A DNA stretch of 64,000 nt from Rufibacter tibetensis (GTDB lineage Bacteria; Bacteroidota; Bacteroidia; Cytophagales; Hymenobacteraceae), in assembly GCF_001310085.1 (NCBI RefSeq), contig NZ_CP012643.1, forward strand, positions 4,160,001 through 4,224,000. Reading direction: 5' to 3'. This document shows, in pieces, positions 21,551 to 23,676 of this stretch. Within the stretch, counting starts at the first letter, position 1; each line of letters starts with the position of its first letter. The notes beneath the pieces were generated by a model. The model searched no databases. It was given only the letters and a program-made list of their open reading frames with translations, and was not told where the DNA came from. A program made the translations under genes and the position numbers.

Positions 21551-21979
21551 CTATTTAACCCTTGTCCAGGTTTGTGAGCGACCAATTAAAGAAATACCAA
21601 TGTATCCTTTCACTTCCAGTTTGTCATTGCTTAAAAGCTTCATGTATGAAGAGTAGGTTTTACCTGATTTTGGATCGTAGATGGTTCCATCATCCCACTT
21701 GTCTGAGCCTACAGGGGCAAAGTTTTTCAGGAACACTAACCCTAGTACCGGACGCTTCTGCAGTTTGGGGTCTGGGTTGAACTGATCTACTTTTGGTTTG
21801 CCATCCCGGTCTGGTTCTTTTAGCCAAATGATTTTGCCGCAAAGTTTGTCTCCGCACTGGTAAATTTCAAAGCGGGCTTCCTTCTCTTCGTTGGTCCAGA
21901 CGCCAATGGGAGATTTTTTCTGAGCCCAACTAAGGGTAGCTAAGCAAAGGAAAAAGGCTAACAAAAAGATATTTTTCAT
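21551..21979 (-). CDS. DUF2147 domain secreted protein
   Basis: A 142-residue exported protein with a signal peptide ending at LSWAQ. The remainder matches DUF2147: PIGVWTNEEKEARFEIYQCG, DKLCGKIIWLKEP, LVFLKNF and the terminal GRSQTWTRV. It probably folds as a small beta barrel or calycin-like domain. No function is established. Two Cys residues could form a disulfide. Confidence 0.87.
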   Translation of the reverse strand: MKNIFLLAFFLCLATLSWAQKKSPIGVWTNEEKEARFEIYQCGDKLCGKIIWLKEPDRDGKPKVDQFNPDPKLQKRPVLGLVFLKNFAPVGSDKWDDGTIYDPKSGKTYSSYMKLLSNDKLEVKGYIGISLIGRSQTWTRVK

Positions 21980-22100: not shown

Positions 22101-22478
22101 ATGCAGAAACGGCTTTTGCTAATACAAGGCGGTTATTTTGGCCTTACCGGTATCTGGCCTTTGCTGCACATGCCCAGTTTTCTGGCAGTGACCGGCCCAA
22201 AGAAAGAGGTGTGGTTGGTGGTTACCGTGGGGCTCCTGATTTTATCTATTGGAGCTGCCTTGCTCACTGCCGCCTTTCAAGCTGTTCAGGAAAGGAGTCC
22301 GGCTGTGTTGGGCTTCTTTAGTGCCGTTAGCATGGGGGCAGTAGATGTAAGGTATGCCTTGAATGATGTAATATTGGATGTGTACCTGTTAGATGCCATT
22401 CCAGAATTTATTTTTTCCTTAGGTTGGGTATGGATATTCTTCAAAAACAAAGACTTACAAAGCCTGAAAAAAACGTGA
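22101..22478 (+). CDS. Small four-helix membrane protein, unknown function
   Basis: A 125-residue protein with about four hydrophobic segments: FGLTGIWPLLHMPSFLAV, VWLVVTVGLLILSIGAALL, AVLGFFSAVSMGAVDV and FIFSLGWVWIFF. It ends in a basic tail (KNKDLQSLKKT). It resembles unnamed small membrane proteins of Cytophagales, but I assign no role. It is followed by the candidate RNA gene in the same direction. Confidence 0.7.
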   Translation: MQKRLLLIQGGYFGLTGIWPLLHMPSFLAVTGPKKEVWLVVTVGLLILSIGAALLTAAFQAVQERSPAVLGFFSAVSMGAVDVRYALNDVILDVYLLDAIPEFIFSLGWVWIFFKNKDLQSLKKT

Positions 22479-22494
22479 ATTTTTTCTTTAAAAC

Positions 22495-22525
22495 TTTTGA
22501 ACTTACCAACCGTTTTTTAACTTTA
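22495..22525 (+). promoter_or_regulatory. Bacteroidota-type promoter of candidate RNA gene
   Basis: TTTTG at 22495-22499 and TAACTTTA at 22518-22525, 18 nt apart, fit TTTG-N19-TAnnTTTG with one mismatch. The predicted start is near 22531. Confidence 0.6.
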
Positions 22526-22530
22526 TAGAA

Positions 22531-22825
22531 CGGAAGCGAGTGCTCCGGGCCCTTCTTAAACAACCATAAGTTACTTGGAAGTTTGGTTGGGTTTATGTCG
22601 GACTTAAAGAAAGGAGGTAAAAGTGTCTAATCCCAGTAAAAATGTATTAAGCCTAGCTCATGTGTCAACCGTTAACCGTGTTGAAGCTTGCTAACTAGAC
22701 TTTGTCTACTGGCGAATCCGGCATGAGGTAGCCCAATGCGACTGAGAGGCAGTTCTCTTTCGTGTCGCTTGATACCATTTCAAAGGATTCCGTACCCGGC
22801 TACTGCAGTGGCCGGGTATTTTTTT
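22531..22825 (+). ncRNA. Candidate structured non-coding RNA, about 295 nt
   Basis: No convincing open frame covers this stretch, yet it has a promoter match, consistent helices and an intrinsic terminator. Helices: CAACCA 22561-22566 with TGGTTG 22584-22589; CTAGCTCATG 22653-22662 with CATGAGGTAG 22722-22731 (9 of 10 pairs), closing a multi-branch loop that holds TCAAC 22665-22669/GTTGA 22680-22684 and TAGAC 22696-22700/GTCTA 22704-22708; and GCGAC 22738-22742 with GTCGC 22764-22768. The terminator stem is TACCCGGC 22793-22800 with GCCGGGTA 22811-22818, followed by seven T. Nothing downstream runs in the same direction, so it is not a leader. I do not see tmRNA, RNase P or SRP RNA signatures. 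Confidence 0.6.
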
Positions 22826-23035
22826 GCCCATTTAATGCGCTTAATATACTGTATATATACTGGTATTCAGGTAATTGGGTTTTGAAGGAATTTAATGTTA
22901 GGCTTTTGTCTCCTAACATCTGTTTGCTTCTAAATGTACAGAAAGGCTATCTGTTTAGGTGGAAGTAGCTTTAATTTTGTAGATTCTGAAGGTGTACCTT
23001 TTGATAATCTTTAGCAGTAATGTTCAAAAGTTTGC

Positions 23036-23079: not shown

Positions 23080-23676
23080 CTAAGGCAGTACTCTCCGGAT
23101 GTCCAAAAACCGTTTCTGGTACAAGGTGCCTTCTGCTTCACTTACTTTCACGCCCCCGTTAGAGGAAGAATGCACAAACTGAATGGCTTTGGGTGGGTTG
23201 GTAATGACAATTCCTATATGTCCTGGGGTGCGGTCTTCCAGGTTAGTACCGGTGAATACAATCAGGTCTCCCTTTTTAGCTTCCTGCATAGAAACACTCT
23301 CGCCTAGTTTTGCCTGATAGGTGGTGCCATGGGGAATGCTCATTCCAAATTGTTGAAAGACATAGGTGATGAACCCAGAGCAATCAAACCCTTCTTCTGT
23401 AACCCCACCGTACGTATAGTCTGCTCCGTAACGTTGCAGGGCAAAGGCTACTACACTATCGGCTTTGGTCGCATACTTTCCTTCCAGAACTCCTAGTGAA
23501 GCAGGATGGGCATCAGCCAGAGTGGTTGCCACGGAATCCTGGTGGAAGACTTTGTCGCCTCCGTCTGAACTGATTTGTCTTACTTTATCGCCCAGCAGGT
23601 CACCTTGCCCGAAAATAGTTTTGTACAGTACCAGCGCAGATAGGAGCACCCCAAAGATGATCCATATTTTTTTCAT
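23080..23676 (-). CDS. NlpC/P60 family cysteine peptidase
   Basis: A 198-residue membrane-anchored or secreted peptidase. An N-terminal hydrophobic segment (IWIIFGVLLSALVLY) is uncleaved by appearance. The NlpC/P60 domain occupies about 70-198, with catalytic Cys99 in GFDCSGFITYVF, His153 in PGHIGIVI, and a later polar residue in IQFVHSSSNGG. Such enzymes cut gamma-D-glutamyl-diamino acid bonds in peptidoglycan stem peptides. It probably acts in wall turnover in the periplasm. Confidence 0.92.
   Translation of the reverse strand: MKKIWIIFGVLLSALVLYKTIFGQGDLLGDKVRQISSDGGDKVFHQDSVATTLADAHPASLGVLEGKYATKADSVVAFALQRYGADYTYGGVTEEGFDCSGFITYVFQQFGMSIPHGTTYQAKLGESVSMQEAKKGDLIVFTGTNLEDRTPGHIGIVITNPPKAIQFVHSSSNGGVKVSEAEGTLYQKRFLDIRRVLP

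Follow-up and report, generated by a model that had tools for sequence, protein, structure and literature searches.

In the published study of Flavobacterium johnsoniae (PMC9976891), the 3' tail of 16S rRNA is described as sequestered by bS21, bS18 and bS6, and bS21-free ribosomes as initiating better on rpsU via its extended Shine-Dalgarno sequence (SD). The same study attributes an extended-SD rpsU to about 20% of Cytophagales, mainly Cyclobacteriaceae, and gives the extended SDs of Bacteroidia rpsU as 9-13 bp long, with energies of -14 to -21 kcal/mol (PMC9976891). Within a 64,000-nt window of the Rufibacter tibetensis genome (assembly GCF_001310085.1, contig NZ_CP012643.1, positions 4,160,001 to 4,224,000 of the forward strand), we analysed an RNA locus that resembles these rpsU genes in having an SD of 11 bp with a computed tail duplex of -17.7 kcal/mol in a phylum mostly avoiding SDs, but that differs from them in being a stand-alone RNA whose 18-23 codon ORF lies within a long-range fold and encodes no ribosomal protein. 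Among the features that define the rpsU type, an SD of about 9-13 nt at initiation spacing is present here (11 nt, with 3-5 nt between it and the start codon in 47/47 loci), whereas the encoded product is a 23-residue peptide in place of bS21, and rpsU lies elsewhere. Other described systems are comparable in part. Dual-function small RNAs such as RNAIII and SgrS carry a short ORF (sORF), as does the stand-alone, regulatory-size RNA of the window, which is set apart from them by its extended SD in an SD-poor phylum and by the lack of any Rfam relation found. Leader-peptide attenuators likewise combine a short ORF with alternative pairing near a terminator, both of which have a likeness here, but the RNA is not followed by a consistent same-strand gene. 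Finally, tmRNA (RF00023) is a structured RNA of similar length that holds a short frame, the difference being that the window RNA has an SD and a start codon where tmRNA has a resume codon.

Judged by its signals, the unit is a real stand-alone one, with a Bacteroidota-type promoter, a length of about 296 nt and a terminator (all elements of the RNA lie on the + strand and are given in window coordinates). The sequence contains a -33-like box, TTTTGAAC (22495..22502), which we take to be the Bacteroidota -33 element, and a -7-like box, TAACTTTA (22518..22525); the promoter claimed in a preliminary description of this DNA, TTTTG at 22495-22499, an 18-nt spacer and TAACTTTA at 22518-22525, is exact in every part. 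In the family alignment, TTTTGAAC/TTGTGAAC was repeatedly found upstream of the RNA, as was a TA(A/T)CTTTA-like -7 box. With the start set by the -7 box, the predicted transcript spans 22530..22825 and ends in an intrinsic terminator (22793..22825), whose 8-bp stem (22793-22800 with 22811-22818) is as perfect as had been described and is followed by seven T (22819-22825); a comparable hairpin and T-rich run was seen in relatives. By DNA similarity the RNA region occurs as a single copy, in one place of its own genome, and it had no blastn match in the plasmid collection.

Upstream, a 125-residue ORF on the same strand (22101-22478, +) stops 16 nt short of the -33 box and had no match in the Pfam look-up, which covered the window's genes; further out is a DUF2147 gene in divergent orientation (21551-21979, -; Pfam). 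ORFs like 22101-22478 (..GIWPL.HM.SFLAVTGPKN..) stand in the same place in several relatives, and several genera share a DUF2147-like divergent gene (SP.G.WTNE) on the upstream side of the RNA. Downstream, the next longer ORF (23080-23676, NlpC/P60 match in Pfam) is convergent, bearing out the earlier claim that no same-direction gene lies just downstream. Downstream ORFs of relatives are mostly convergent as well, co-directional ones being the minority and of more than one kind, and a leader-peptide attenuator was rejected on these grounds. In one genome of family f23, a cobalamin riboswitch (L303:792-1018) directly follows the terminator of the RNA.

The RNA family is not recognised by Rfam 15. 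At gathering scores Rfam found nothing in the window, nor did ARAGORN, in agreement with the earlier failure to fit known families by eye; six Rfam matches at E<=10 in 22480-22880, SorY among them, lay far below gathering scores and mostly on the terminator hairpin, and were rejected. A literature search found no description of the RNA. The suggestion that it might be 6S-like was not supported, as RF00013 exceeded its cut-off in 0/8 genomes, gave two weak matches elsewhere and was absent from the E<=10 matches. A divergent version of one of the known housekeeping RNAs (6S, tmRNA, RNase P or SRP) would fit in length and stand-alone structure only, and with Rfam and ARAGORN blank and 6S unsupported it is extremely improbable. 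It is largely refuted for tmRNA, since the window RNA had no match to the RF00023 model and the tmRNA of the genome lies at C1:1338130-1338502; RNase P and SRP RNA, judged by Rfam searches of the window and region, had no gathering match in the window and none at E<=10 in 22480-22880.

The best conserved block of the RNA comprises the extended SD, the start codon and the short ORF. To read the 16S tail we used the pattern GGCTGGATCACCTCCTT, which was present in five of seven genomes tried and not found in G000 or G012; another search of G000 for its own 16S 3' end likewise found none. Eight loci were read, of which seven were 16S ends (from five relatives) and one a coding gene. All seven 16S ends carry GGATCACCTCCTTTCT and then diverge, so that the extended SD AGAAAGGAGGT (22608..22618) is an exact 11-nt complement of the tail; the mature end is presumably ...UUUCU. 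AGAAAGGAGGT, followed after 3-5 nt by (A/G)TGTCTA and an open frame, was found in all 47 DNA-similar loci, and the 17 homologues fetched with a model of the 5' part had an exact SD in 13 cases, one change in three and a severely broken SD in one (G138). As a bare 11-mer it occurs 1-7 times per genome in 60 family genomes, against 0-14 for the reversed control, and 30 fetched occurrences comprised 12 of this element, seven antisense 16S ends, four with another start codon nearby and seven with none. The SD in the window sequence is partly paired on average (0.40), and an unstructured AUGU-N3-AC segment before it is conserved.

A GTG at 22623, starting 4 nt after the 11-nt SD, opens an sORF of 23 codons (22623..22694, encoding VSNPSKNVLSLAHVSTVNRVEAC, TAA stop at 22692-22694 included), and a frame of 22-23 codons is open in 47/47 DNA-similar loci. 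The statement in the preliminary description that the RNA has no credible open frame is thus wrong, and is its main error. GTG is the sORF start codon at all 16 loci of the window's genus (g1, L083); most relatives use ATG. Across 87 distinct ORFs (71 peptides of 18-23 residues), 472 pairs showed 710, 758 and 1858 differences at the three codon positions, and 237 distinct single-base codon changes comprised 95 synonymous (67.5 expected) and 142 non-synonymous (169.5 expected) ones; this signal supports coding without proving it, because the sequence pairs are interdependent, the ORF is base-paired in part and one unrelated alphaproteobacterial ORF (L141) was included in the count.

These counts bear on two alternatives. 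The first is a small-protein gene in which the peptide is the product, the folded mRNA tunes its expression and the SD is a strong or bS21-regulated site; the frame kept in 47/47 loci, the third-position bias with synonymous changes above expectation, and 3-nt insertions that stay in frame among the sORFs of relatives speak for it. Against this, the conserved N-terminal residues (MSSP/MSNP) overlap paired RNA, the remainder, including the C-terminal half, varies between families, and 142 of the 237 distinct single-base codon changes are non-synonymous, so we regard it as unlikely, if well short of negligible. Less likely still is a ribosome decoy or 30S assembly/storage RNA, in which the anti-tail segment would bind free 16S tails and the ORF would be incidental: such an RNA would suit a stand-alone unit present in all family genomes listed, with the 11-nt anti-tail segment among its best conserved parts, but not a properly spaced start codon with an open frame in 47/47 loci, nor the synonymous bias of the sORF.

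The fold of the window RNA was moderately better than that of shuffles when a single sequence was used (z -2.26; three of 100 shuffles as good), and RNAalifold on four genera indicated one architecture. Covariation was scored on an alignment of 49 family sequences (A3; 49/50 used, L046 being dropped beforehand for a mis-set 3' end), against shuffles that do not keep relatedness. The 36-pair structure was paired in 85.4% of cells, compared with 75.1% in shuffles (0/500), and the covariation score was 0.325 against 0.179 (0/500). Sliding the partners by 1-3 columns reduced pairing to 29-48%, a control that leans towards the structure because the latter was drawn on a family member. The preliminary description had proposed to look for conservation and compensatory changes in related genomes, and both were found: the RNA region had DNA similarity in 47 of 98 relatives, and 25 of the 36 pairs were doubly changed, compared with 16.6 in shuffles (0/500).

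The main helix, missed in the preliminary description, joins codons of the ORF to the strand just before the terminator. This long-range helix A pairs 22640..22652, inside the ORF, with 22767..22780; over 15 columns it is paired in 88.2% of cells, 11 columns have double changes, and its 3' strand is indicated by covariation within the family and by predicted duplexes outside it. Just after the start codon, AAUCC (22629..22633) has a proposed partner, GGAUU (22785..22789), before the terminator; the former is indicated by a constrained fold and by predicted duplexes in several families and the latter is conserved in the sequences read, with GGAAU as its counterpart at three of four f23 loci and GGAAAU at the fourth. 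This pairing was left out of the covariation count because its columns are misaligned in A3. Duplexes between the ORF start and the pre-terminator strand were better than base-shuffled sequences (<=10/200 as good; shuffles keep base composition only) in 20 of 27 parsed sequences, 15/21 outside the family and 5/6 inside, whilst for the window's own sequence (L001) 11/200 shuffles were as good; a wrong 3' anchor had been used in at least some of the misses (L246, L248, L249, L154), and L130 and L237 were not parsed. When the window sequence is folded by itself, including helix A costs 1.2 kcal/mol relative to the optimum (-91.6 against -92.8 kcal/mol), although helix A does appear in the optimal fold computed for a slightly different stretch.

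Further elements are arranged around this helix. A 5' hairpin, P1, with a GAGU loop (22531..22547; five pairs, 96.7% of cells paired, two pairs with double changes in the 49 family sequences), is followed by a predicted variable hairpin, P2 (22549..22592), whose closing stem has double changes in 29 sequences. The 10-position helix claimed earlier between 22653-22662 and 22722-22731 stood for the most part: as inner helix C (CTAGCTCATG, 22653..22662, with CATGAGGTAG, 22722..22731) it pairs at 9/10 positions, with one G-G mismatch, and its family counterpart shows double changes and is paired in 70-83% of cells. Inside the ORF lies hairpin P4 (22666..22683; five pairs, four with double changes, 81.6% of cells paired), and the 3' domain has a predicted hairpin, P6 (22738..22766, approximate ends), whose counterpart in the family pairs in about 79% of cells. 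A bistable switch, in which the 3' strand of helix A would alternatively pair with a AAGGUCUUACC-like segment (helix B), was considered and rejected as having little if any support: its covariation score was 0.115 against 0.106 (41/500 shuffles as high), with seven doubly changed cells against 2.7 (0/500).

The distribution of the RNA was surveyed with two models. The model of the 5' part (R1, with P1 and P2) found matches at E<=0.01 in 96 of the 390 genomes of the order, and 17 of 20 regions fetched after it were homologues, L250-L252 being judged otherwise on reading. A sequence-only core model from 46 sequences (R2) matched 106/390, with 88 strong matches (E<1e-11) from the window's family (79), f5 (7), f17 (1) and f20 (1); the 18 weak genomes (E>1e-3) were not counted. 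All 79 family genomes listed are strong R2 matches, and the 20 listed of the 284 unmatched genomes of the order all belong to other families. In a class sample of 395 genomes R2 matched 22, namely four of the family, four of f23, one of f51 and 13 weak ones that were not counted; the five non-family loci (E 7e-9 to 2e-4) showed on reading a hairpin, SD, short ORF and terminator, the f23 peptide (..FITIN..) differing from the family type. A pattern scan of named genomes gave at least 34 loci with the family-type peptide among 80 listed, and the loci with this peptide include Hymenobacter, Pontibacter, Adhaeribacter, Chryseolinea, Ohtaekwangia, Chryseosolibacter, Parachryseolinea, Cesiribacter, Nafulsella and other Cytophagales. 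A lineage-specific RNA, as the preliminary description had thought possible, is apt in that the RNA is conserved in the lineage, stand-alone and without an Rfam family, but the lineage is broader than Hymenobacteraceae, given the model matches in the order and class.

We also compared the RNA with rpsU in the genomes that carry it. In 16/16 carriers examined (ten of the family, four of f5, G075 and G185), rpsU had no strong SD (-0.5 to -6.9 kcal/mol), and Tyr54 of bS21 was kept in all 16. Among parsed non-carriers 24/26 likewise had no strong rpsU SD; the strong ones were G083 (-17.9) and G092 (-18.8), with G085 at -10.9, the remainder weaker and two more genomes not parsed. The RNA is thus not simply an alternative to the rpsU SD, and the strict rule of one instead of the other fails, as those 24 have neither. 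The rpsU leader was also the one candidate target tried for a trans-acting antisense small RNA, whose sORF would be a by-product or second function. Its own promoter and terminator, its stand-alone setting and the conserved unstructured AUGU-N3-AC segment before the SD are what such an RNA might have, but pairing with the leader was convincing against shuffles in only one of 13 genomes (2/60 as good), the other 12 falling short of this (13-58 of 60 as good; shuffles keep base composition only), and we give this explanation a low probability, level with that of the decoy.

A second set of short ORFs, mostly of 18 residues (for example, VSRVILERGVGTVRG..), was observed in alphaproteobacterial loci (L118, L125, L128, L131, L142, L147, L176 and others) behind AGAAAGGAGGTG, which in some of these loci we take to be a 16-nt match to the bacterial 16S end. 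In 15 of 32 hand-picked loci, ACCTCC lies 109-130 nt downstream of the SD, resembling an internal anti-SD, and five of the loci had no Rfam match. These loci may represent an unrelated RNA built on the same principle.

Overall, comparison across genomes indicates that the RNA is real, conserved and structured, with an initiation signal, and it supports the stand-alone unit, the complementarity of SD and 16S tail, a conserved start codon and ORF, and the long-range helix. That this is a conserved structured RNA with an sORF entered by ribosomes is, in our judgement, highly probable. We infer that the unit is transcribed, entered by ribosomes and translated, with a dependence on bS21 and an effect of the opened RNA or of the peptide. 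Because an unusually strong landing site occurs in a group where such sites are seldom used, the RNA may report the state of ribosomes, and our preferred but tentative explanation of the whole is that a structured RNA standing on its own doubles as a very short mRNA and turns ribosome status into a change of fold, lifetime or peptide. Without initiation, the first codons would stay paired with the strand that immediately precedes the terminator. The extended SD would engage the free end of the 16S tail over its full length and, since the tail of Bacteroidia is normally held by bS21, bS18 and bS6, entry would be mainly by tail-free 30S subunits, such as bS21-deficient ones. Once a ribosome had initiated and translated some 18-23 codons, the helix between ORF and 3' strand would be opened, so that ribosome status would lead to an altered RNA fold, lifetime or peptide output. 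That the purpose is to sense a free tail or missing bS21 is somewhat more doubtful than the explanation as a whole. More speculative again, and on balance rather unlikely, is the fullest form of the proposal, namely a new class of RNA in Cytophagales and other Bacteroidia that would act as a ribosome-status sensor, its extended SD capturing tail-exposed 30S subunits for a throw-away peptide whose translation unzips the ORF from the terminator-proximal strand and switches RNA activity, and that would carry free-tail sensing where rpsU lost or never had an extended SD.

Bacteroidia keep their anti-SD mostly unused, and rpsU is the gene in which use of an extended SD has been studied. The same signal is found here in a single-copy RNA of every listed family genome, whilst rpsU of the examined carriers is without it, and the sORF behind it is too short for the usual ORF cut-offs. 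The RNA would thus provide a concrete object for testing specialised (bS21-free) ribosomes outside ribosomal-protein control.
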